Assembly (NCBI GenBank): GCA_030710605.1
Contig: CP092872.1
Location: forward strand, 11,095,691 to 11,159,690
Source of the DNA: Cordylochernes scorpioides
Taxonomy: Eukaryota; Arthropoda; Arachnida; Pseudoscorpiones; Chernetidae
Reading direction: 5' to 3'
DNA: 64,000 bases
Positions 1,244 to 59,126 of the stretch are shown piece after piece. How positions within the stretch are numbered: position 1 is the first letter of the stretch; each line of letters opens with the position of its first letter. The notes under the pieces are model-generated. The model was not told the origin of the DNA and did not search any database. It was given only the letters and a program-made list of their open reading frames with translations. Both the position numbers and the translations under genes were made by a program.

Positions 1244-1714
1244 TTAAATTGTATTTGCTACATCATTTCCCTCGTATATTTGTGAATATTGTGTCCTTTG
1301 GATAATTTTGTCTATTTGTGATTTGTAAATCGGGCATTCACTTGAATTTGATTTATGGTTTGTAGAAATGTTTTTAAATTTAGGGTGCTTAGAGAAATTG
1401 TGACAATTTGGCGCTTCAATACAGTTGTGGCTACCCTGTACACCGCATATTTTACATATTTTAATGTTTTGGCAGTCTTTTGTTTTATGGTTCGGATTAA
1501 ATTCAAAACAATTTTGGCATTGTCTTACAAATATTCTGTCTTTTGTAGAACATCGCTCAAAATCGGTGTATATCTCATTACCCATTTTTCTTAAAATTTG
1601 GTAAACTTTAGTAGTTACTTTTAATACTATATTGTGATATGCAGAGTTAAATCCCATTCGCGGTACGAGACAAGCGATGCCAAACATGTCCGCACAGTTG
1701 GCTTCAGAAGCCAT
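1244..1714 (-). pseudogene. LINE ORF1, gag-like zinc-knuckle protein (fragment)
   Basis: The 156-residue fragment carries closely spaced Cys/His clusters (CQNCFEFNPNHKTKDC, then CKICGVQGSHNC), which match the CCHC knuckles of LINE ORF1 proteins. ORF1 proteins of this type bind the element RNA to form the ribonucleoprotein used in retrotransposition. The start shown is only the first Met of the open stretch. Similarity to ORF1 probably continues upstream in another frame, because the residues before the knuckles (MGNEIYTDFERC) sit in the middle of the usual domain rather than at its N terminus. ORF2 begins just downstream on the same strand. The copy is frameshifted and truncated by the neighbouring mariner-type element. 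The zinc-knuckle identity is sure; the clade is less so. Confidence 0.75.
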
Positions 1715-1783
1715 ATATCGATTATTCTTATTTTAATTCATTTGAAAAATTCAACTATCCCTGATCATTTATTTTACTCTGGG

Positions 1784-2890
1784 ATGCCGTCACTACAGGA
1801 TAAAGTACTCTTGGTGAAATTTTATTATTGCAATTCAGAATCTTCCACTGAAGCTTTACGAGCGTTTCGTAACTTTAAAGGTATTCGAAGAGGTAAAGGA
1901 CCCATGAGTTGCTACTCTCTAAGGAGAATGATAAAATATTTTGAGAAGACTGGATCTCTGGAAGCAAAACCTCGGAGTGGAAGACCATCGACACGCAAGT
2001 CAGTGGCTGTTGCGGTTTCGCAGAATGTTGAAGCTATTGAAACGTTATCCACGTATGGAGAAGTAAGTGCTCGACAAGTTTCTCGACAAACGGGGATTTC
2101 GTATGGAACAGTTTGGAGAGCTCTAAGAATTTTTCTTAAAAAATACCCGTACAAAATTCAAAGATTTCACGAGCTAAAAGTCGGCGATTTTGAGAAGCGT
2201 CAAGAATTTGCTGCATGGGTTTTCCGGCAAATTGATATTGATGAAAACTGGCTGTCGAATGTTCTGTGGACAGATGAAGCTCACTTTTATCTAAATGGAG
2301 AAGTCAACACTCAAAACAGCCGCATTTGGGCAACAGGAAACCCTAGGATTTTTACAGAAATGCCACTTCATCATCCCAGAGTTACAGTTTGGTGTGGGTT
2401 CACTTCTTCTTTTATTATTGGGCCATTTTTCTTTGAAGAAATAAATGGAAGAACTTTTAAAACCGTTTCTGTAACTGGTGAACGTTATGTTCAACTTTTG
2501 AGAGAAAAGGGTTTCCCCATATTGCAGGACAGACAAGCACTGAGCGAAATAACATTCATGCAAGATGGAGGACCTCCTCATATCTCCCGCGGTGCCAAAC
2601 AATTGCTGAAGGATACGTTCGGTGAAGATCGTGTGATAAGTCGCCACTTTATACACCAGTGGCCTTCAAGATCACCAGACTTGACGCCTTGCGATTTTTG
2701 GCTAGGGGGGTACATTAAGTCGCGTGTTTATCGATGCCGGCCTACCACATTGGCCATGTTGAAGGCTTCTATCAGACGGCACGTTTCATCAATTTCAACA
2801 GATATGTTATTTAATGCTATCCAATCTGTCATCTATCGTCTGCAGGCGGTGTTTGAGAATGAAGGGCGCCACATTGAGCAAGGATTGTGA
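1784..2890 (+). CDS. Tc1/mariner-superfamily transposase (DDD type)
   Basis: The 368-residue protein is intact from ATG 1784 to TGA 2888-2890. It starts with a helix-turn-helix region (LQDKVLLVKFYY through KPRSGRPS), then a second one (ISYGTVWRALR), then a DDE/D catalytic domain. The likely catalytic acids are D164 in WTDEAHFYLNG, D261 in FMQDGGPPH and D304 in SPDLTPCDFW. The last two are separated by 42 residues, longer than the 34 of classical mariner, so this belongs to a long-spacing DDD branch of the superfamily. The enzyme cuts and pastes its own element by binding the terminal inverted repeats. An earlier in-frame Met exists at 1634, but that stretch overlaps LINE sequence, so I use 1784. 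An AATAAA signal lies about 115 bp after the stop. Confidence 0.9.
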   Translation: MPSLQDKVLLVKFYYCNSESSTEALRAFRNFKGIRRGKGPMSCYSLRRMIKYFEKTGSLEAKPRSGRPSTRKSVAVAVSQNVEAIETLSTYGEVSARQVSRQTGISYGTVWRALRIFLKKYPYKIQRFHELKVGDFEKRQEFAAWVFRQIDIDENWLSNVLWTDEAHFYLNGEVNTQNSRIWATGNPRIFTEMPLHHPRVTVWCGFTSSFIIGPFFFEEINGRTFKTVSVTGERYVQLLREKGFPILQDRQALSEITFMQDGGPPHISRGAKQLLKDTFGEDRVISRHFIHQWPSRSPDLTPCDFWLGGYIKSRVYRCRPTTLAMLKASIRRHVSSISTDMLFNAIQSVIYRLQAVFENEGRHIEQGL

Positions 2891-4454: not shown

Positions 4455-4890
4455 GTAAAACGACATTTGAAAATTATCCTGCATGTGTTTCTTTTCAATG
4501 AAAATTCAATATTTATTTCAAGGAGAAAAATAACGATTATTTCTAACCTTTTGAATGAGGTATAAAAGGGTGAATTGTGAAGAGTAATGATAAACGGAAA
4601 AATAAAAGTGTCCAGGGATGGGAATCGAACCCATAGTGTTCCGCTTACCGGGCAGATGCCATGTCCAGGGTAGCCTAGTGGACATGGCATCTGCCCGGTA
4701 AACGGAACACTGAGGGTTCGATTCCCATCCCTGGACACTTTTATTTTTCCGTTTATCATTACTCTTCACAATTCACCCTTTTATACCTCATTCAAAAGGT
4801 TAGAAATAATCGTTATTTCTCTTTGAAATAAATTTTGAATTTTCATTGAAAAGAAACACATGCGGGATAGTATTTCAAATGTCGTTTTAC
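4455..4890. repeat. Perfect-like palindrome of two head-to-head SINE1 copies
   Basis: Two copies of a tRNA-derived SINE lie in opposite orientation, joined at their tRNA heads. The arms are about 213 bp each (4455-4667 and 4679-4890) with an 11-nt loop, and differ by only a few bases. The right copy has the tRNA A-box-like TAGCCTAGTGG and a perfect B box, GGTTCGATTCC (about 4713-4723). A tRNA-like acceptor pairing (GTCCAGG with CCTGGAC) spans the loop. The body runs through CTTTTATTTTTCCGTTTATC to ACATGCGGGATA. Confidence 0.85.
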
Positions 4891-14755: not shown

Positions 14756-15121
14756 ATTCATGCTATTTGAAAAATAGTACCAAATGTGAATTTGTACTTG
14801 GATCAGGTAGAGATAAATTGAGAAAAAGGGCATTTCCTGATTATGCAACTAAAAGTTGCTGATGGCTTGCGCCATCTATCGGAATAAATATCAACTAATC
14901 GTTCATTTTTTAATTATTCCAGAATTGACCAAATACCCAACAGCCCGAAACGCGTACGTGGTTAGCTTTTCTTGAATAATCAAGAAACGGTATTTGGTCA
15001 ATTCTGGAATAATTAAAAATCAAGGATTAGTTGATATTTATTCCGATAGATGGCGTAAGCCATCAGCAACTTTTAGTAGTTGCACAATCAGGAAATGCCC
15101 CTTTTTCTAATTCATGCTATT
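14756..15121 (+). mobile_element. Family B palindromic element, copy B2, with 12-bp target duplication
   Basis: ATTCATGCTATT at 14756-14767 is repeated at 15110-15121. Inside, arms of GGGCATTTCCTGATTATGCA type are inverted at both ends. A one-sided extension (14768-14820, with AAATAGTACCAAATGTGAAT) lies only on the left. The apex keeps the 3' half of a hammerhead (14940-14966: GCCC, GAAA, CGCGTA, CGTGGTTAGC); the CUGAUGA half is missing. Confidence 0.8.
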
Positions 15122-15174
15122 GTTGCTCTCACATGCTTAAATTTCATCATTTCATATCCCATCAGAATATACAC

Positions 15175-15480
15175 TAAAGCTTAGCTCCATCTATTGATCG
15201 TCGCCTCAAACTAGCGGTCTCGGGTCAACAATGAAACCACAACACCAGCTTTGTCAAACTGAGTAGTGTTCACCTAGAGACCATGGTTTCGGGCTAATGG
15301 CCTTCGTCAGCCTAAGGCGGGCATTAATTTCATAATATCCACAAGGGATCAAATGAAGCATTAATAATATGTCAAATAGATGTTTAGCTGGTATAGTTGT
15401 TAGGCCAAATCTATGGTCAAAATATAAATGGAATTTTTGCCGGGAAAATAAGGATTGATAAAAGTCGACTCTCCCATCCA
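15175..15480 (-). mobile_element. Family A element carrying hammerhead HHR-A3
   Basis: Shares with 22454-22753 and 32560-32870 the blocks CCATCTATTGATCGTCGCC, ACTAGCGGTCTCGGGTC, CACAACACCAGCTTTGTC, the hammerhead and TCCACAAGGGATC. The right part is diverged and ends near a GCCGGGA block. Confidence 0.7.
15271..15320 (-). ncRNA. Type I hammerhead ribozyme HHR-A3
   Basis: On the minus strand: CTGACGA, a stem II formed by AGGC/GCCC with loop CATTA (three pairs plus one mismatch), GAAA, palindromic CCATGG, TC (cleavage expected after this C), then TCTAGG, which pairs with CCTTAGG to close stem I (one or two G-U pairs). All core nucleotides are present. Stem III is very short, as in hammerheads of retrotransposons. 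Confidence 0.7.
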
Positions 15481-15522
15481 AAAAGATGCTATAGCCTATA
15501 CACTTACATATATAGAATATGT

Positions 15523-15618
15523 GTATAACGAATCAAAAGTTTTTACGAAGGAGTATATTTTATAGATCTTTTATAAAAGATACTCCTTCGTAAAAACTTT
15601 TGATTCGTTATACACTTA
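15523..15618. repeat. Short perfect palindrome
   Basis: TGTATAACGAATCAAAAGTT and the following TTTACGAAGGAGTAT are repeated as an exact inverted copy at 15581-15618. The arms are about 36 bp and the AT loop about 22 bp. No relation to the other families seen. Confidence 0.85.
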
Positions 15619-16739: not shown

Positions 16740-17075
16740 ATATCCTTTCTTTTATATCAAGGAACCACGTAAACGTTTCAAGCTGTTCGCCCTCGTCAAT
16801 CTGCTAGAGGCTGAACATCAACCATTAAAAAAGGTAGTGAGAAATAGAACAAAAATAAATTTGTACTTGGATCAGGTAGATAAATCAAAAAAAAGGCATT
16901 TCCTGATCGTGTAATTAAACCTATGTGGTTAGCTTTTCTTGATTAATCAAGAAACGGTATTTGGCCAATTCTGGAATAATTAAAAATCAACGATTTTTTG
17001 ATATTTATTCCGATAGATGGCGAAAGACATCAGCAAATTTTAGTTGCACGATAAGTGCCTTTTTTCTTTAAATAA
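16740..17075. mobile_element. Family B palindromic element, decayed copies
   Basis: At 16764-16806 (minus) lies a degraded HHR-B: TTGACGA instead of CTGATGA, then GGGC, GAAA and ACGTGG. It is followed by the family extension ATTTGTACTTGGATCAGGTA, the arm GGCATTTCCTGATCGTG and an inverted half with CCGATAGATGGCGAAAGACA. An 82-codon open frame across it reads through ribozyme and arm sequence, so I do not take it as a gene. Confidence 0.6.
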
Positions 17076-22188: not shown

Positions 22189-22453
22189 ATATTAACTTTA
22201 TTATGATGCATTAAAGCGCCATCTGTTATCAAAATTCGAAACTATTATAGACGCGTATGATTCTTTTTGAAAATCAACAATTTCTACTGTCCTTACTGGA
22301 ATGGAAAATTTTGTCTGTGTATGAATCTAAAGATCCGTTATAAAAAAAGGAAGGATCGACTTAATTTGATAAATTCCCAGGCCTTCCCATTAATTTGCAG
22401 TAAGGACAGTAGAAATTGTTTATTTTCAAAAAAAAAAATCATACGCGTCTATA

Positions 22454-22753
22454 AAATAGATGGAAATCTTGCCGGGAGGACATTGATCAAAAGAGACAAA
22501 GGTCGCCTCTCCCGTCAAAATAGACGTCAAAACCAGACGTCATCTATTGACCGTCGCCGCAAACTAGCGGCCTCGGGTCGGTGACAAAGCCACAATACCA
22601 GCTTTGACAAACTAAAAAGCGTCCACCTAGAGACCATGGTTCCGAGCTAATGGCCCTCGTCAGTCTAGGGCGGACTTTATTCCATGAGATCCACACGGGA
22701 TCTAATTGACCGTCTATTTTGACGGGAGAGGCGACCTTTGTCTCTTTTGTGTG
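22454..22753 (-). mobile_element. Family A element A2 (300 bp) inserted in C1
   Basis: Flanked by TATA on both sides, from the interrupted family C arm. Inverted arms of about 37 bp carry AAAGGTCGCCTCTCCCGTCA and its complement. The one-sided extension TCTTGCCGGGAGGACATTGA lies at the left. The middle holds hammerhead HHR-A2. Confidence 0.85.
22621..22675 (-). ncRNA. Hammerhead HHR-A2, core mutated
   Basis: Same layout as 32676-32730 (stem I GTCC/GGAC and CCTAGA/TCTAGG, CTGACGA, palindromic CCATGG, TC), but the GAAA core reads GGAA. That A13-to-G change should abolish cleavage. Confidence 0.65.
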
Positions 22754-24639: not shown

Positions 24640-24835
24640 TATAAAAGCATAGTGCGCTTCTCCCATCAAAATAAACGTCAAAAAAAGACACCATCTATTG
24701 ACCGTCGCCGCAAACTAGCTGCTTCGAGTCGATGACAAAACCACAACACTAGCTTTGATGGCGTCTAGGTCTAACGTTCATTTTGATGGGAGAGGTGCCC
24801 TATGTTTTTATAGATCAATTTCCTCCCGGCAAAAA
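24640..24835. mobile_element. Family A element, hammerhead region deleted
   Basis: Arms with GCGCTTCTCCCATCAAAATA and its inverse, ending in TCAATTTCCTCCCGGCAAAA. The conserved CGTCGCCGCAAACTAGC and CCACAACACTAGCTTTG remain, but the hammerhead is missing. Confidence 0.75.
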
Positions 24836-24841
24836 TTCTCA

Positions 24842-25104
24842 AATATATACTGTTGTTAAAATTCTAAACTATTATAGAAGCGTATGATTCTTTTTAAAAA
24901 TTAAACAATTTCTACTGTCCTTACTGCAATATGGAAAAAATAATGGGAGGGTTCACCACTGATGAGCCAGGCCCTCCCATTGATTTTTCACATTGCAGTA
25001 AGGACAGTAGAAATTGTTTAATTTTTAATAGGAATCATACGCGTCTATAATAGTTTAGAATTTTCAGAGCAGATGGTGAGCTAATGCATCAATATATACA
25101 GTTG
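24842..25104. mobile_element. Family C palindromic element C2 with 14-bp target duplication
   Basis: AATATATACTGTTG (24842-24855) and AATATATACAGTTG (25091-25104) flank the element with one mismatch. The long hairpin arms contain ACAATTTCTACTGTCCTTAC and CATACGCGTCTATAATAG. The extension GATGGTGAGCTAATGCATC lies only on the right. Confidence 0.85.
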
Positions 25105-28264: not shown

Positions 28265-28608
28265 TATATACTATTATGAAAAAGGCATCTCCTTATCGTG
28301 CAACTGAGAGTTGCTGATGGCTTGCGCCATCTATCGGAATAAATATCAACTATTCGTTGATTTCTAATTATTCCAGAATTGACCAAATATCCATTCTTGA
28401 TTAATCAAGAAAAGCTAACCACGTACACGTTTCGGGCTGTTGGCCCTCATCAGCGTGGTGCAAGCTGTACCTCAACGACCAAAAAACTGATCATTCAGGC
28501 ATCCTGAAAAAGTTGCACGATAAGGAGATGCCTTTTTATTAATTTACGCATGTTATCCCAGTACAATATCACATTTGTACTATTTTTTTCATATTTATAT
28601 ACTATTAT
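28265..28608 (-). mobile_element. Family B element B1, complete, with 13-bp target duplication
   Basis: TATATACTATTAT at 28265-28277 is repeated exactly at 28596-28608, giving a 318-bp element. Its 26-bp inverted arms are perfect (AAAAGGCATCTCCTTATCGT and its complement). A one-sided extension (28545-28595, with ATCACATTTGTACTATTTTT) lies on the right only. The middle carries hammerhead HHR-B1 on the minus strand, and GCGCCATCTATCGGAATAAA lies in the left half. No ORF. Confidence 0.9.
28414..28465 (-). ncRNA. Type I hammerhead ribozyme HHR-B1, intact core
   Basis: On the minus strand: stem I 5' side GCTTGCACCACG, CTGATGA, stem II GGGC/GCCC with loop CAACA, GAAA, then a minimal stem III (AC-GT-GT) and GTA (cleavage expected after this A). 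The stem I 3' side CGTGGTTAGC pairs as CCACG/CGTGG and GCT/AGC around an internal loop. Every conserved core base is present. The tiny stem III is typical of retrotransposon hammerheads thought to work best as dimers. Confidence 0.8.
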
Positions 28609-30619: not shown

Positions 30620-30805
30620 TGTCTCTTTTGGTATATATGAAACTATAGAAGCAATGGGCGCCTCTCCCTTCAAAATAAACGTCAAAAACTGACGCCATCT
30701 ATTGACCGTCGCCGCAGTTGGCGTCAGTTTTTGACGTTTATTTTGAAGGGAGAGGCGCCCATTGCTTCTATGGATTAATATCCTCCCGGCAAATTTTCCA
30801 TCCAT
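30620..30805. mobile_element. Family A element reduced to a near-perfect hairpin
   Basis: AGAAGCAATGGGCGCCTCTC, CCTTCAAAATAAACGTCAAA and CTGACGCCATCTATTGACC are followed almost at once by their exact inverse, ending in TCCTCCCGGCAAATTTTCC. Ribozyme and middle are gone. Confidence 0.85.
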
Positions 30806-32078: not shown

Positions 32079-32184
32079 ATTTTTATTATTCTTATTACAT
32101 ACACAGCGTATTTACGTAAATTTGTTCATAGATACCTATTTCTTGATTTCTAAGGAGGCCTATGGGACCGAATATTGTTTGTAG

Positions 32185-32400
32185 ATGTAAAGTCTGCACT
32201 ATGCTGACAAGAGCTAACAGCACGAAACTCGTACGTGGTTGACCTTTCTTGATTTCTCAAGAAATTAAGTTCGCCATATATCACGGAACAAATTTTTTAA
32301 AAGGTTCAGTTGAATTTTTCCATTATATGGTGTTCTGACATTTAAAATGCTATTGGGAGAGATCAGGAAATGCTTTTTTTGTTTTTAATATCAACACCTG
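32185..32400 (+). mobile_element. Family B-like fragment with degraded hammerhead
   Basis: At 32192-32242: CTGACAA (G8 lost), GAAA, then GTACGTGGTTGAC matching the stem I side of HHR-B1. It continues into GATCAGGAAATGC at 32363. Confidence 0.55.
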
Positions 32401-32559: not shown

Positions 32560-32870
32560 CCTGGCAATTTTTCCATCTACTAGCCATAGATTTGGCTCAG
32601 CCACCTTGCCAGCAAACACCTCTTTGGTAGATTGTGAAGATTCTATTAGATCCCGTGTGGATCTCATGGAATAAAGTCCGCCCTAGACTGACGAGGGCCA
32701 TTAGCCCGAAACCATGGTCTCTAGGTGGACGCTTCTCAATTTGCCAAAGCTGGTGTTGTGGCTTTGTCACCGACCCGAGGCCGCTAGTTTGCGGAGACGG
32801 TCAATAGAGGGCGTCAGTTTTTGACGTTTATTTTGACGGGAGAAGCGCCCTATGCTTCTATATATTAAGA
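32560..32870 (+). mobile_element. Family A element A1 with intact hammerhead
   Basis: TTCCTCCTGGCAATTTTTCC lies at the left. Then come the hammerhead, GGTGTTGTGGCTTTGTCACC, CCGCTAGTTTGCGGAGACGG, TCAATAGAGGGCGTCAG and the arm TTATTTTGACGGGAGAAGCG to 32870. The left arm is not preserved. Confidence 0.8.
32676..32730 (+). ncRNA. Type I hammerhead ribozyme HHR-A1, intact core
   Basis: Stem I 5' side GTCCGCCCTAGA (32676-32687), CTGACGA (32688-32694), stem II GGGC/GCCC with loop CATTA, GAAA (32708-32711), short palindromic stem III CCATGG, then TC with C17 at 32719. The stem I 3' side TCTAGGTGGAC (32720-32730) pairs as CCTAGA/TCTAGG (6 bp) and GTCC/GGAC (4 bp) with an internal loop. All catalytic-core positions agree with the known consensus. 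In the element this strand reads towards the family A right arm. Confidence 0.85.
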
Positions 32871-38770: not shown

Positions 38771-40264
38771 ACTCCAAAAGTTTCGGCAATTAATATTAAA
38801 TAATTTAAATATTAAGAAATAAATTATACCATTATAAAATACAAGTATGAAGCTAAAAAGATAACATGGCACACAACAACAACACACTAGGCAGCTATTA
38901 TCTTGGCAGCTATCTCTAGACGTCTAGTTTTGACGTCTATTTTGACGGGAGAGGCGACCTTTGTCTCTTTAGCTATTATCTTGCTAAAATATATACAATT
39001 AGGTACTATGATAGTATAATTTTATGATATTGCTAATTATATTCAAAATGAACATTTTTAAACTTAATAAAAGAGTTTAAAATTTCGTTAGGGGAATTTT
39101 TTTTTATAGTAACTAAGCTGTCAAGCTGAGATTTCGGAATTATCCCTTTAAAGAACCAATGACACTGGGTAGCTATTAGCTTGTGAAAATATATTCAATT
39201 AAGTTCTCTATGAGAAATATGCAAAAATGTAAATAAATGCTAACCAGTGTCTCATGACATCTTTAAGAAGACTTCTCAAAAAGATTAGTTTGTTTGGCAC
39301 ACACATTCATGCACCTTATCCCAGTACAACATCACATTTGTACTATTTTTTCACTTTGAATATTGTTTTAAATATGTATAGTTAAGCTACCTATTTTTTT
39401 TTAAATCACGAATATAGGATTCATTTTATAAATTATATATTGCTGTGATAAATAATTTTATGTGTAATTTTACTTCAAGTAATACAAAATAAAAACTACT
39501 TGATAAATAAATAATTATCTTTTCTATTTTCACAACTGCACCATCAATTCTCTATATTTTTCAACAACAAAAAACAAAATAATCATAACATATATATATA
39601 TTTAAGAGTTTAAACATTCTGAGGAAAACTTAAATTCCTAAATTAACATAATTTTATACTATCCCTGTAAATCAAATAAATTGTATGTTACAATAAACAC
39701 AAGAAACGTCACACGCTATTTATCTATTTGGATTTGGTCTTATTACCTTGTGTTTATAATCTATAATCCAAATTGTGCCTTATCAAATGTATGTTACAAT
39801 GTTTCAACTTATATTTCACACAAGGTAATAATATTTGAAGTTAGAAACTGATACAAATTGATATTAAAACTCTCTAAAGAATTGTAGAGTACGTCGAATT
39901 GTTTAAGAAGCCCTTTCTCTCCACAATACAATGGTTGATTGATTCTGGAAACATTCCGCACCTTCAACAAAAACAGCTAAAAAACGCTCCTACAGCAAAA
40001 ATCAAATGCAGCACCTCGCACCAAAATAACGTCCCATGTCACTAGGTTTTATAGGAGTAAAGCGATCTACCTCTTTTTATGCATTTCCAACAAGGTTTTG
40101 TTGTATTGTCTTCCTAAAGATAGAAATGGTGATGTGCCAATCTGTTTTAGCTGTTGAGGTATGTGTTTGAACCTCTTTGCCGAATCTAACAAGAAAGATC
40201 TTCGATTCTTGCCTTGAAAAAGGTAAATCATAATTAAGATGAAAATAAGAAATAGAACTAATAA
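38771..40264. other. No gene recognised; small repeat scraps
   Basis: Holds a family A arm (38933-38968, TTTTGACGTCTATTTTGACG) and a family B extension scrap (39310-39350, CCCAGTACAACATCACATTT). A 67-codon minus-strand frame (40067-40270) has no motif I recognise. Confidence 0.5.
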
Positions 40265-52989: not shown

Positions 52990-53118
52990 CCGTATATAAG
53001 TTATATTGATGAAAATTTTGCCGGGAGGAAATTGATCCATAGAGGCATAGGGTGCCTCTCCCGTTAAAATAAACGTCAAAACCTGACGCCATCTATTGAC
53101 CGTCGCCGCAAACTATAC
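52990..53118. repeat. Family A half element
   Basis: TTTGCCGGGAGGAAATTGAT, CATAGGGTGCCTCTCCCG, CCTGACGCCATCTATTGACC and CGTCGCCGCAAACT, then it stops. No hammerhead. Confidence 0.75.
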
Positions 53119-54614: not shown

Positions 54615-54622
54615 GGTAACAC

Positions 54623-54640
54623 TGGTCCCAGAGGTCCCAA
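54623..54640 (+). other. Candidate primer-binding site
   Basis: TGGTCCCAGAGGTCCCAA starts 8 bp after the LTR. A primer tRNA pairs with a sequence opening in TGG, so this fits, but the gap is larger than usual and I could not name the tRNA. Confidence 0.4.
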
Positions 54641-54730
54641 GATATCACAGACTCCCCCGTAACGAAGAGTCGACAGGATAGTGGACGCCAAGGTACAAGT
54701 AAGCAAATAGACCACTGTCTGTACAGAAAG

Positions 54731-55864
54731 ATGGAACAGGGAAGAGAGGAGAATCCCAAGGAACCAATGGAGTCCGATCCCGACTCCGAAAGTGGCGGAA
54801 GCACCACTTTTCCAAAGAAAGAAAACGAAAACACTCTCGGTAGAACGGAGGAAATCGCCCCCGGCCAGGAAGACGTCACACCCCCGCCGCCGGTGTCAGA
54901 TGTCCTGGGGAGTTTAGCCAGGACGATATATCAGCTCTCCTCGGCGACAGGACTCTCGCGAGATGTGGAGCTATCGCGTTACGATGGTTCGTACGAGGCG
55001 CAGAGCTTCTTCGACAACTACGACGCCCAAGCTGATCTGGCCCAACTACACTACACCGACAGACTGAGAAGGCTTCCCAACCTCCTACAAGGTAAGGCCC
55101 TGCACTACTTCCGCAGCCTAAAATTAGACAAATTATATTACGTTGACGCAAGGCAGGCCTTGATAGACCTCTTTCCTGAAACCACAAACGCGTCATTTGC
55201 CCAATTCTTGGCCATTAAGTTGACAGATCGCTCCTCGTTAGAGGAATATTATCAAAAAAAGACGGTGTGTGGCCTACAGCTGAACCTTCCCCACAAAATC
55301 CTTTTAGAATCCCTGACTGATGGGTTACCCGTCGCTGATCAGCGCATTGTCGCTGCCGTGCAACCGAACACCCTCCAAGCGTGGTATAGTGTAGTGTCGC
55401 GCGTAAGAGGAACCCACAGTGCGTCGCAAATGTGCCAACAGACGACCAGAACAACGCCCAACCCTTCCTTCGCACCGTCACCGAGGTACAGTGCTCCGCG
55501 ACCATGGTCAACGCGACCCAACTACTCTACCAATCCACCCCCTTCATCCTGCAGGTATTGTGGCGCCATGCACTGGCACGCCCAGTGCCCCAAACGGCCT
55601 GCACAGAGCCGTCCAAGACCTGTGTACCGAGCCACAACTTATCCGCAGCACGACAGAACTGTGTTGTCCTCTCCCGCACCCTTCCAAGTTAACAACACGC
55701 GAGCGCATGTTACCCGCTCCCCTGATCCTCTCTACACCACGAGCCCAGCGCAAGCAGTGAACCCTAGCTGTCCCATAGGTACCTCGACCACGGCACCAAA
55801 ACAGGCCTGTTCCGACGCCCAAGACAGCACAACAGTAGGTTCCTCCTCACATAACTTTCGTTGA
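54731..55864 (+). CDS. gag: Gypsy Gag polyprotein
   Basis: 377 residues from the first ATG after the leader, ending at TGA 55862-55864. The N-terminal 60 residues are acidic and proline-rich. Residues about 85-230 look like the retrotransposon Gag core (FFDNYDAQADLAQL, LPNLLQGKALHYF, SLEEYYQKKT). The Pro/Ser-rich C-terminal part holds one zinc knuckle, CRYCGAMHWHAQC, from residue 274, with spacing CX2CX3HX4C, one residue shorter than the canonical CX2CX4HX4C. Gag forms the particle that packages the element RNA. Pol follows in the +1 frame with a 26-nt overlap, so it is probably made as a Gag-Pol fusion. Confidence 0.9.
   Translation: MEQGREENPKEPMESDPDSESGGSTTFPKKENENTLGRTEEIAPGQEDVTPPPPVSDVLGSLARTIYQLSSATGLSRDVELSRYDGSYEAQSFFDNYDAQADLAQLHYTDRLRRLPNLLQGKALHYFRSLKLDKLYYVDARQALIDLFPETTNASFAQFLAIKLTDRSSLEEYYQKKTVCGLQLNLPHKILLESLTDGLPVADQRIVAAVQPNTLQAWYSVVSRVRGTHSASQMCQQTTRTTPNPSFAPSPRYSAPRPWSTRPNYSTNPPPSSCRYCGAMHWHAQCPKRPAQSRPRPVYRATTYPQHDRTVLSSPAPFQVNNTRAHVTRSPDPLYTTSPAQAVNPSCPIGTSTTAPKQACSDAQDSTTVGSSSHNFR
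55839..55864 (+). promoter_or_regulatory. Gag-Pol +1 frameshift window
   Basis: This 26-nt stretch is the only overlap of the gag and pol frames. Gag ends AAC TTT CGT TGA, and a one-base forward slip before the stop would enter pol. No known slippery heptamer is obvious. Frame relation is seen; the mechanism is inferred. Confidence 0.6.
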
Positions 55865-58800
55865 ACAATTGCTCGTTCGAGCTGAACTGCCCAATAATGT
55901 AAACCTTCCTCTACTACTTGATACAGGAGCATCTATCGATATAATTAGTCGGAATACTTTTAAAATAATAGAAACCAATTTGCAAAAGAAAATACCTGTT
56001 CACCCATTTAACTTAACTATTAATGCCATAGCTAACAATATTTTCACCATAGGTTATATCTTTTTAAACGTAAAAATAGGTAACATAACGCAGAACCTAA
56101 AATTCCATATTATAGATGCCCCCTTGCCTTTTGGCATATTATCCCTTAACTCCATAAAAAGATTTCTACTAATTATAAACTGTCCTCAGCTACTCCTGTA
56201 TCAAGATAATGTACCTCTACCAACTACCTTATACAAATTCACCTCGTGCAAGCAACAAGTGTCCCATGGACAGGTTAATACAACTGTCCCAGTTACTAAA
56301 TCTTCCCCTCCTGGAACGGGTTGCTCACACGTGGTGAACTCCAACACTCTTATTTGGCCTCAATGTAATGTTCCTGATCCTATTTTCAACGCCTCTATGT
56401 CCTCCTCTTGCATATCTTTGGACACAAGTAACCTAGGTCACTGTCCCTATAATTTACACAAGGTACTGCATCAATTTACACCCGTTTTCGCCGCCAATAA
56501 ATACGACGTCCCTAAGCTTAAAATACCTCCCGTAAAAATCAATACTACTTCGGACAAGGTAATTGCCTTACGTCCTTATCGCGTACCCCTAAATGACCAA
56601 CTTGAAATACAAACACAAATCGAACACATGCTTGAACACGGTATAATTACAACCTCAGTATCTCCCTATGCCAGTCCTATTACGCTTGTCACCAAACGTG
56701 ACAAATCAAAACGCTTTTGTGTTGACTATCGTAGGATTAATGAAATCATTGCACCAGACGTCCATCCTCTCCCCTTGATAGAGAATATACTCGACAAACT
56801 CTCACGCGCCAAATATTTCTCCTCAGCCGACATATCTTCTGCCTACTGGCAGGTCGAAATAGATCCCAGTTCCCGTCACCTTTTAGCTTTCGTGACATTA
56901 GACGGGCAATACGAATTTTGTAGGCTTCCTTTTGGGATGCGCAACTCACCACAGATTTTTGAACGTGCAATAAACCAAATATTCCAAAAATATAAGTTAA
57001 ACTTCATAGCCCACTATTTCGATGATTTTATTATCTTTTCGGATACCTTAGAAGAGCATATTCAACACGTAGAAAAATTCCTGGAGATCTGCCAACAGGA
57101 AAATATTAAACTAAACTATAAAAAATGTGAATTTTTGAAGACATCAATAGAATTTCTAGGATACACTGTTAAGAACGGAACTTACACACCGCAGACCCGT
57201 AACCTCGATATTATTAACGCTATCAAACCTCCCTTCAACCAAAAAACATTACAGTCCTTTTTAGGAGCCGTCAACGTATATAACAAGTTTATACCAAATT
57301 ATGCCCGTCTCAGAACCCCACTCAACAATTTACTTAAAAAGGACACTAAATGGCAATGGGACGACAAATGTCAACAGGCATTCACGGCTCTCAAGGAGAG
57401 CTTAACACGTAAGCCCGTATTACATCTGTATCAGGATGGCTTACCCTGCCGCTTGTACTGTGACGCCTCCACCCAGGGAATCGCAGGAATTCTCAAACAA
57501 GTACATCCGGATGGAAAAGTTCATCCCACACAGTATTACAGTAGAGCATTACGCCCTCACGAACGCAACTATACCATTTCAGAGTTAGAATGCTTAGCGA
57601 TCGTAGAAAGCATCGAAAAATTCCGCATCTATCTATCCGGTACCAAATTCACTGTCTACTCCGACCACCAAGCCCTACAATGGCTTAAAACTATTAAAAA
57701 CCCGTCAGGACGACTTTTTAGGTGGAGTTTAAGACTATCCACTTACGACTATGAAATACAGTACCTCAAGGGAACCCAGCAACACGAGGCCGATTTGCTT
57801 TCTCGCAATCCATTTTGTGGATTTATCAGTGCCCGTACTATTAAGAAACACCAACCGAATATCACAGATACCAGTGTCGCTGTAGACGTCAACGGTCTAC
57901 ACACCATACGGCGTAAAGGTGTAAATCGAATAATAATACCCGAAGCTCTTCAACACTCGCTTATGAACCAGGTTCACAGCGAATACAACCATCCCGGTAT
58001 CTCCCAAATGGCTCGCCTAATCTCTACTCAGTATTACTGGAAAGGTATGGCCAAGTCCATACAAAAATTTGTAAATTCCTGTCATACCTGCCAAATCATC
58101 AAAAGACCCAAAGGTAAGCCTTATGGCACCTTAGGACAAATTCCCCCACCACAACAGCCATTCGATTTAATATCAATAGATACAATAGCCGGATTTTCGA
58201 AATACGGACACTCCAAGACGTATCTCCATGTTATAGTGGATCACTTGACCAGATACGCTTGGGCATTCCCATCGAAATCTACAAGTACCTTAACGTACAT
58301 CCAAACCCTAAAAAAGGTACTACAACAAGGGTCTCCAAAACGTCTACTTTCGGATAGAGCGCCCGCATTCACCTCCGAAAAATTCCGCAAATTTCTGCTA
58401 TCTCGCGGGATACAACCACTGCTTACCACCAGTAACAATCCGCAAGCTAACGGATTGATAGAACGATTGAACGCCACCATCACTGGAAAACTAAGGTTAC
58501 TTTATCTCGAAAACCCGAAGACATCTTGGACCAAACTAATTAAACAAGTTGTCCAAATCTATAATCAATCCCCGCACACCGTCACGGGTTTCCCACCGAT
58601 CTTCTTGATGTTTAATAGCATCCCACCAGAACAAAAAAATCATTACAACCCGTTCCCCGACGTACAGAAGGCTAGGCAACTCGCCTCCAGCAGAACACAG
58701 CTTAAGCATGAAAGGGACAAACAAAGATATGATAAAGGTCATCAAGCCCCGCATTTCGAGATTGGTGACCTAGTCCTCGTAAAAAATTATAAACATCCCG

Positions 58801-59126
58801 ATACGGGAAAATTGGCACCATACTTCACAGGTCCGTTTACAATTATAGAAATAATACCCCCAAACGTAGTCCGAATTAACAGACCCAATCGACCCCTAAA
58901 TAAAGAAGATGATACAGTTCATGTGAACAAACTTAAATACTATACAGAAGATATCTTATTCCTCGCGCCCCAGCCTCTAATTCCAACACCTCGCGTAACA
59001 CCTGATGTCCACTTGAAAGAATTCGGCCATTTATGTCCCACAATATTTGACGCGCAGAAATCCCGTCTTATACCCCCGACTTGCTCAGCGCCTTTTCTGC
59101 ACCTTAATGCAGAGATCTTCCAATAA
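55839..59126 (+). CDS. pol: Gypsy Pol polyprotein: protease, reverse transcriptase, RNase H, integrase
   Basis: The frame opens after a stop at 55836-55838 and has no ATG near its start, so I give its full open extent. Numbering from 55869, the aspartic protease has DTGA at residue 18. The reverse transcriptase includes YASPITLVTKRD, FCVDYRRIN and the active site YFDD at 383-386. RNase H shows LYCDAS, SELECLAIVES and YSDHQALQWL. The integrase has an HHCC zinc region (HSEYNHPG, CHTCQ) and catalytic D771, D829 and E865 (DD35E). A GPF motif (YFTGPFTIIEI) follows. No chromodomain or env is seen. All catalytic residues are present and no stop interrupts it, so it may be functional. Confidence 0.93.
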   Translation, partial: VPPHITFVEQLLVRAELPNNVNLPLLLDTGASIDIISRNTFKIIETNLQKKIPVHPFNLTINAIANNIFTIGYIFLNVKIGNITQNLKFHIIDAPLPFGILSLNSIKRFLLIINCPQLLLYQDNVPLPTTLYKFTSCKQQVSHGQVNTTVPVTKSSPPGTGCSHVVNSNTLIWPQCNVPDPIFNASMSSSCISLDTSNLGHCPYNLHKVLHQFTPVFAANKYDVPKLKIPPVKINTTSDKVIALRPYRVPLNDQLEIQTQIEHMLEHGIITTSVSPYASPITLVTKRDKSKRFCVDYRRINEIIAPDVHPLPLIENILDKLSRAKYFSSADISSAYWQVEIDPSSRHLLAFVTLDGQYEFCRLPFGMRNSPQIFERAINQIFQKYKLNFIAHYFDDFIIFSDTLEEHIQHVEKFLEICQQENIKLNYKKCEFLKTSIEFLGYTVKNGTYTPQTRNLDIINAIKPPFNQKTLQSFLGAVNVYNKFIPNYARLRTPLNNLLKKDTKWQWDDKCQQAFTALKESLTRKPVLHLYQDGLPCRLYCDASTQGIAGILKQVHPDGKVHPTQYYSRALRPHERNYTISELECLAIVESIEKFRIYLSGTKFTVYSDHQALQWLKTIKNPSGRLFRWSLRLSTYDYEIQYLKGTQQHEADLLSRNPFCGFISARTIKKHQPNITDTSVAVDVNGLHTIRRKGVNRIIIPEALQHSLMNQVHSEYNHPGISQMARLISTQYYWKGMAKSIQKFVNSCHTCQIIKRPKGKPYGTLGQIPPPQQPFDLISIDTIAGFSKYGHSKTYLHVIVDHLTRYAWAFPSKSTSTLTYIQTLKKVLQQGSPKRLLSDRAPAFTSEKFRKFLLSRGIQPLLTTSNNPQANGLIERLNATITGKLRLLYLENPKTSWTKLIKQVVQIYNQSPHTVTGFPPIFLMFNSIPPEQKNHYNPFPDVQKARQLASSRTQLKHERDKQRYDKGHQAPHFEIGDLVLVKNYKHPDTGKLAPYFTGPFTIIEIIPPNVVRINRPNRPLNKEDDTVHVNKLKYYTEDILFLAPQPLIPTPRVTPDVHLKEFGHLCPTIFDAQKSRLIPPTCSAPFLHLNAEIFQ

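Follow-up and report, generated by a model that had tools for sequence, protein, structure and literature searches.

The window, a stretch of 64,000 nucleotides of the Cordylochernes scorpioides genome (contig C10, 11095691-11159690), contains at positions 28278-28595 a short insertion, B1, composed of two inverted pieces of one 338-bp repeat unit. Numbering of this unit starts at the predicted hammerhead cut, and S and L denote two sites in it at which copies end. The features of the locus are as follows.

28265-28277: left target-site duplication, 13 bp, TATATACTATTAT, exact direct repeat
28278-28595: B1 element, head-to-head retrozyme insertion, 318 bp, GC 38%
28278-28510, minus strand: first arm of B1, unit 251-338 then 1 to about 153 (alignment to the 338-bp unit)
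28279-28305, plus strand: left inverted arm, 27 bp, perfect (self-comparison of B1)
28418-28459, minus strand: minimal type I hammerhead of B1 (core bases, family, covariation, sub-threshold HH9)
28511-28595, plus strand: second arm of B1, inverted, unit 121 to about 200 (alignment to the 338-bp unit)
28511-28537, minus strand: right inverted arm, 27 bp, perfect (self-comparison of B1)
28544-28595, plus strand: tail of B1, the S-to-L segment (unit alignment, tail test)
28596-28608: right target-site duplication, 13 bp, TATATACTATTAT, identical to the left copy

The original prediction had described a 318-bp element between exact 13-bp direct repeats, with a one-sided extension, a minus-strand type I hammerhead with every core base in place and no ORF. 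Sequence comparison bears out each of these points, the extension being the tail at 28544-28595. The longest ATG ORF of B1 has 18 codons, and B1 thus does not contain the RT/GIY-YIG ORF of an autonomous Penelope-like element (PLE). The inverted arms are indeed perfect, but they are 27 bp long and not 26; identity is 94% across the 33 nt that are common to both pieces of B1. These arms are no transposon termini or ends of a defined element, and represent the overlap of two head-to-head copies with their 3' ends outward. Each outer end of B1 is a 3' end, the left one at site S without the tail and the right one at site L. The overlapping copies are a long one, probably started at S, and a short one, probably started at L.

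Retrozyme families and Penelope-like elements in the genome

B1 belongs to a repeat family, family A, with about 30,000 copies. In the 2.62-Gb assembly (24 contigs), a 30-nt core pattern with at most three mismatches gives 29,720 matches (14,821 + 14,899), and the reversed control gives 0. Alignment of B1 to the genome returns at least 119 matching pieces, from the 40 scored of 4,641 first-look candidates. A genome search with a piece of a typical unit gives 0 candidates; very common words are passed over in this search. The 338-bp monomer is found as single copies, in direct arrays and in head-to-head inverted pairs. At C1:5.965 Mb an array of exact 338-bp units is found with TA repeats on both flanks; among five complete units listed for it, three have the same sequence and the other two differ by a single change each. 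The unit is non-coding, with GC 41% and a longest ATG ORF of 44 codons in three joined units. Identity is 99.5% within arrays (7 pairs), 98.6% between arms of one locus (3 pairs) and 97.6% between loci (35 pairs), and the excess within the few arrays sampled is suggestive of array homogeneity. Arm-to-arm identity is just modestly higher within a locus (97.2%, 11 loci) than between loci (94.5%), which speaks against the preferred reading below; the arms of L017 share 87.6%. Further pieces of family A, and pieces of two other families, are present in the window.

14756-15121: second family-A head-to-head copy, tail on the left, none on the right
14756-14767 and 15110-15121: 12-bp duplication of this copy, ATTCATGCTATT
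16842-17064: older family-A head-to-head copy, tail on the left, none on the right
16763-16832: diverged hammerhead-region piece beside the older copy
39305-39358, plus strand: bare tail piece of family A, unit 152-205 only
32682-32725, plus strand: family C hammerhead region (pattern scan)
15157-15416, 22497-22709, 24640-24757, 30644-30778, 53039-53115 and 38928-38978: family C pieces
32105-32263: family B piece

Family C is a second retrozyme family with its own hammerhead, for which 19,223 matches are found (9,579 + 9,644; control 0). Its same-strand neighbours are spaced at 319-320 bp in 6 of 7 cases, and its copy at 30644-30778 is flanked by an exact duplication of 12 bp, ATATGAAACTAT. 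Family B, the third, is about 75% like family A at two sampled loci and 71% in the window, and its stem II is GCGC/GCGC versus GGGC/GCCC in family A. It is also seen in L051 (2367-2408, minus strand) and L066 (2477-2518, plus strand).

PLEs are present in the same genome. A GIY-YIG profile search gives at least 146 matches, from the 150 scored of 17,015 first-look candidates, and two kinds of element are observed among the few examined closely. In the first kind (L039, L044 and L069), GIY-YIG lies near the start of the frame and ahead of the RT part, a permuted domain order that we take to be that of the Naiad group. In the second kind (L070 and L072), RVT_1 is followed by GIY-YIG in one frame, and a minimal hammerhead is found downstream of the ORF, whose pattern is matched 9,391 times across the genome (control 0). 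The arms of L070 are 2,402 bp at 100% identity with a 12-bp duplication, and those of L072 are 588 bp at 100%. A PLE protein of this genome matches one Cordylochernes scorpioides record with 97% identity across 63% of its length and another with 77% across 72%. A PDB sequence search with the PLE protein returned two weak, irrelevant rows. No hammerhead is found in the flanks of L069, which together with L086 and L087 (C1:8983600-8995400) represents a PLE copy in a palindrome with arms of more than 5 kb at 99.5-99.7% identity.

The minimal hammerhead

The hammerhead of B1 has the full core ACCACG-CUGAUGA-GGGC(CAACA)GCCC-GAA-ACGUGU-A^CGUGGU, and from this sequence cleavage is expected between 28424 and 28423. 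The cut-site triplet is GUA in B1 versus GUC in most family-A copies of the sampled loci. GUA should be an acceptable triplet for hammerhead cleavage. The stem III segment of B1, ACGUGU, is self-complementary with two G-U pairs and departs from the common family sequence; this segment is ACGCGU in family A and in four of five family B copies, and ACCAUGGU in all four family C copies. With self-complementary segments in families A, B and C, cleavage as a dimer would fit. Two family-A copies are predicted to fold as a double hammerhead at -35.1 kcal/mol, and a single copy to fold as a hammerhead at -13.7 kcal/mol with its own optimum at -14.9. The double hammerhead of B1 is weaker, at -29.8 kcal/mol, which is 2.8 kcal/mol above the dimer optimum. 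PLE hammerheads with hardly any stem III, and their cleavage as dimers, have reportedly been proposed by Cervera and de la Pena in 2014 and by Lunse et al. in 2017, both cited in passages of PMC7761336. Such minimal hammerheads, where mapped in PLEs, are said to sit in the pseudo-LTRs of ORF-bearing elements, whereas the 338-bp unit has no ORF.

Folded as a single strand, the B1 hammerhead is no better than its shuffles (z -1.0; 35 of 200 as good). The bare core pattern is seen three times in the 64-kb window with 1.44 expected, and as many are found in 19 of 100 shuffles, which is not significant. Since the bare motif is near chance level in the window, the case for the hammerhead rests on its family. 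Across 18 copies from families A, B and C, helix cells are paired in 99.5% of cases, a percentage that is inflated, with decayed copies under-represented, because 16 of the 18 rows come from a scan that requires the stems (the other two were taken by likeness to family C). Double changes are found in 24 cells, versus at most 2 in slid controls with the partner moved by 1-3 columns. None of 500 shuffles reaches the observed pairing, the double-changed cells or the covariation score, with the tool's warning that the sequences are related. Sequence changes lie in helices I and II, whose stems covary, and helix III varies very little. Two further measures are unexceptional: pairs changed on both sides (5 versus 3.7; 101 of 500 shuffles as high) and further pair types (13 versus 10.8; 40 of 500 as high). 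Judged by the genome-wide family and the covariation of its helices, the hammerhead motif of B1 is real.

The lack of a covariance-model hit had been named beforehand as evidence against the prediction, and at the gathering score Rfam gives no hammerhead in the window. With E up to 1, the only hammerhead match for B1 is HH9 with 22.4 bits (cut-off 52; E 0.5) at 28404-28469 on the minus strand. The same model matches below threshold with 26.5 bits in array units and 28.0 bits in one family B copy (cut-off 52), and it recurs at all five complete units of one 338-bp array. A search of five loci with E up to 5 gives no match at the hammerheads of family C or the PLEs. Because HH9 recurs at the array units and the helices covary, we read the miss as a limit of the model for hammerheads with very short stem III. 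On their minus strands, L005 (from 2760) and L006 (from 2738) may carry a fourth type of hammerhead, in which GAA is followed by ACCAUGG.

Ends, tails and target-site duplications

At the sampled loci, the outer ends of family A are found at S (unit 147-159) or L (unit 192-209), about 50 nt apart. In all 30 scored head-to-head insertions, a 3' end is found on either outer side and the S-to-L tail on exactly one side; these are 17 of 17 in family A, 3 of 3 in family C and 10 of 10 in the PLEs. No S/S or L/L pair is found among the 30. The 17 family-A rows are 15 loci, including B1 (L001), and the two further window copies. Loci L001-L008 were picked by likeness to B1 and form a biased sample; when the B1-like rows L001-L005 and L008 are removed, the count is 24 of 24. 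For family C, the rows are three copies of the window whose head-to-head arrangement is plain to see. The PLE rows are all of the RVT_1-GIY-YIG kind and were chosen for a close opposite-strand hammerhead pair or visible arms, and two of their ends are ragged (L078 right and L080 left) and were scored by script. Left out of the tally are L006 and L007 (the insertions of L005 and L004), L022 and L023 (flanks of L021, inverted), L016, L036 and L038 (which repeat loci already counted), all direct copies, and L069, whose palindrome extends beyond the sequence analysed. Also left out are L081-L084, inverted duplicates of each other, which by eye represent one more S/L insertion.

The head-to-head orientation is also observed among close opposite-strand neighbours, in 31 of 32 pairs among the first 100 exact matches listed of each of the three patterns (8 of 9 for family A, 12 of 12 for the PLEs and 11 of 11 for family C). 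Four of the PLE pairs, with a spacing of 2,429-2,432, are probably duplicates of one insertion. In family A, predicted hairpins lie immediately 5' of S and L (z -2.35). Folding does not reach significance in family C (z -0.69), in the PLE (z -1.32) or in the tail of B1 (z -1.64), and an RT-start hairpin as a general rule was dropped for this reason.

The direct copies, 11 in number (L009, L012, L013, L014, L015, L018, L025, two in L026, L028 and L032), each have a single 3' end, located at S or L; their 5' ends are scattered, and in none of the 11 does the 5' end come within 3 nt of the cut site. In addition, 88 complete hammerheads in the sampled loci read through the cut site, with overlapping loci counted repeatedly. 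The read-through and the position of the 5' ends argue against a linear ribozyme-cut monomer as template and point to a circular, re-ligated or uncut multimeric RNA as the probable one.

Inverted 5' parts and variable duplications also result from twin priming, so that a LINE could be thought to spread the element. With twin priming, a single outer end would be a 3' end and the upstream part would be inverted. The copies have instead two outer 3' ends at two fixed internal sites, with arms that often overlap, as in PLEs, and no common poly(A) or simple-repeat 3' end is found among the aligned family-A copies. We consider spread by a LINE very unlikely.

In 28 rows of family A, the longest direct repeat shared by the two ends has a median of 12 bp, versus 5 bp in 756 mismatched left-right pairs. 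Repeats of at least 11 bp are found in 17 of 28 rows versus 4.8% of the mismatched pairs, and of at least 9 bp in 21 of 28 versus 13%. The matched ends range from 3 to 19 bp, three rows having only 3-4 bp. Five rows are weak, with 3-7 bp (L003, L009, L012, L015 and L028), and in L028 the duplication was missed because the left boundary had been placed too far inward by one partial unit. The 28 rows represent 25 independent insertions, with the duplicate pairs L004/L007, L005/L006 and L021/L022 kept. For the PLEs and family C together (13 rows), the median is 12 bp versus 7 in 156 mismatched pairs, and repeats of at least 9 bp are found in 10 of 13 versus 17%; L078, L079 and the family C copy at 22440 have matches of only 5-7 bp.

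Two other origins can be weighed with these data. A cut-and-paste MITE with terminal inverted repeats would have inverted arms and flanking duplications like those of B1. The original prediction had set this origin aside and had named constant duplications of 2-9 bp as evidence against its own reading, and on both points the data agree with it: the duplications vary in length around the median of 12 bp, and the arms are not fixed termini. They are internal to the 338-bp unit, their extent varies from copy to copy, and the sequence of B1 also forms direct arrays, all of which makes a MITE extremely improbable. Satellite DNA shuffled by recombination, with an incidental hammerhead, would account for the tandem arrays. 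However, the sampled copies are mostly short and dispersed with repeated target sequence at their ends, the ends are restricted to two sites, and the hammerhead helices covary between families. We give this explanation hardly any credence.

Proposed insertion by PLE-type machinery

The insertion plan, with inverted copies, a one-sided tail and a variable duplication, is common to the retrozyme and the PLEs. We therefore regard B1 as a metazoan retrozyme of the non-autonomous kind whose insertion from a circular or multimeric RNA is due to PLE-type machinery and probably involved two coupled priming events (probability about 0.8). A non-autonomous, Penelope-derived and retrozyme-like unit was what the original prediction had proposed, and the 338-bp tandem monomers, the hammerhead, the variable duplications and the PLE-like plan support it.

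The full-length Penelope with the arms of B1 that it had led one to look for is not found among the GIY-YIG loci examined. No full-length PLE carrying the 338-bp unit is recognised among 34 such loci, some of which were read to the 3' end, and the S-L sequence of the retrozyme matches none of the PLE 3' ends examined, so the helper is identified by anatomy and not by homology. Unit-like matches are present in five of the 34 loci (L042, L050, L051, L066 and L070), which we tentatively read as neighbouring insertions. These observations bear on the view that B1 is a solo pseudo-LTR or an inverted pair from an autonomous PLE with the 338-bp sequence around its ORF, and family A the debris of such elements. 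The shared insertion plan would suit this view, as would the tailed pseudo-LTRs and inverted copies described for PLEs in passages of PMC3846280. On the other side, successive 338-bp units of the direct arrays have no ORF between them, few GIY-YIG loci have unit-like matches at all, and the PLE loci with a visible hammerhead mostly carry one unlike that of family A. An origin as PLE debris is thus unlikely, though less so than the other alternatives above.

For the preferred reading, a retrozyme inserted by PLE-type machinery, we propose the following cycle. Tandem retrozyme copies would be transcribed, and the minimal hammerhead would cut the transcripts, as a dimer through its self-complementary stem III. 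The cut RNA may then be ligated to circles, or the RNA may stay multimeric. A PLE protein acting in trans, with RT and GIY-YIG endonuclease, would cut the two strands of an AT-rich target about 12 nt apart, a stagger suggested by the duplication lengths. The 3' ends of the target would prime cDNA inside the retrozyme RNA, one of them using site S and the other using L, which lies about 50 nt further downstream. The end positions S and L are observed, and priming at them is the presumed cause. The two cDNAs would finally join head to head and the gaps be filled in, and the inverted pair with one tail and a flanking duplication is the structure present in the genome.

A hairpin made from a single cDNA would have the identical site at both ends, and no such insertion is found among the 30. 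Independent starts would also give S/S and L/L pairs; these are absent among the 30, and coupled starts are therefore proposed. Somewhat more tentatively, and with slightly less than an even chance in our estimate, insertion may be obligately two-site in retrozymes and PLEs: the two strands would prime the same RNA particle at S and L and never at the same site. In that case, the tail would mark the action of a dimeric PLE RT on a single RNA, circular or multimeric, and PLEs would be identified by it as the elements that drive animal retrozymes. In the passages of PMC11167929 on PAc in vitro, the start site is alike on both strands, and with no strand difference one S and one L every time is not predicted by PAc alone.

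Passages of PMC7229834 describe metazoan non-LTR retrozymes as non-coding tandem repeats of 150-450 bp with GC below 50%, a type I hammerhead, duplications of more than 4 bp and co-resident PLEs, and state that the weak stem III in axolotl calls for dimers. Family A resembles them in its 338-bp arrays and copies from single to multimer, its non-coding sequence with GC 41%, its duplications with a median of 12 bp, and a type I hammerhead in the unit, recognised by sequence and covariation, with a stem III shorter than canonical. It differs in that this self-complementary stem III has only 2 bp around a 2-nt gap, and in the one-tail head-to-head copies, which those passages of PMC7229834 do not mention. 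Plant LTR retrozymes, as described in passages of PMC7229834 and PMC11722881, are likewise non-autonomous and hammerhead-bearing with a circular RNA intermediate, which is supposed for family A; they differ in the type III hammerhead, LTRs, PBS, PPT and 4-bp duplications.

With regard to autonomous PLEs, the Anolis PAc protein cuts and extends both target strands, two adjacent sites within the RNA serve as starts for its cDNA, and the genomic tail corresponds to the stretch from one of these sites to the other (passages of PMC11167929). Adineta Penelope families have inverted pseudo-LTRs, a 31-bp tail on one of them and short duplications (passages of PMC3846280). The inverted pseudo-LTRs, the 30-40 bp tail at one end and the two RT starts match our elements, and AT-rich targets, duplications of 8-10 bp and a head-to-head bias are also described in these two sources. 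Autonomous PLEs encode RT and endonuclease, whereas family A is non-coding, and the tail is optional in these accounts of Anolis and Adineta, whereas it is present in 30 of 30 head-to-head insertions here.

Animal retrozymes, minimal PLE hammerheads and PLE tails are already known separately. In a search of open-licence papers, no text linking retrozymes to PLE-type head-to-head ends was found; in passages of PMC7229834, PMC7761336 and PMC11722881 the link to PLEs either goes no further than a likely candidate or is reached by exclusion. With one-tail ends common to both, a PLE protein inserting retrozyme RNA is the simplest account, and this signature would provide genomic evidence for PLEs as drivers that can be counted in other genomes. 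The pattern also constrains the mechanism of PLE insertion, about which "relatively little" is known according to a passage of PMC11167929. With more than 58,000 hammerhead matches to three patterns (29,720 + 9,391 + 19,223), this genome is a rich test system for the retrozyme driver and for PLE insertion.

Several other features are observed in the window. An open frame of 421 codons at 1625-2890 (plus strand) looks by eye like a mariner/Tc-type transposase, and two long frames at 54620-59126 (plus strand) look by eye like the gag and pol of a gypsy-type LTR retrotransposon. Within 4633-4738, a tRNA-Thr (GGT) at 4663-4738 apparently overlaps its own inverted partial copy, with a hairpin-like Rfam match at 4633-4713 on the minus strand. 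Long near-perfect hairpins at 15521-15615, 22255-22439 and 24889-25034, with sub-threshold microRNA matches, are apparently small palindromic repeats.
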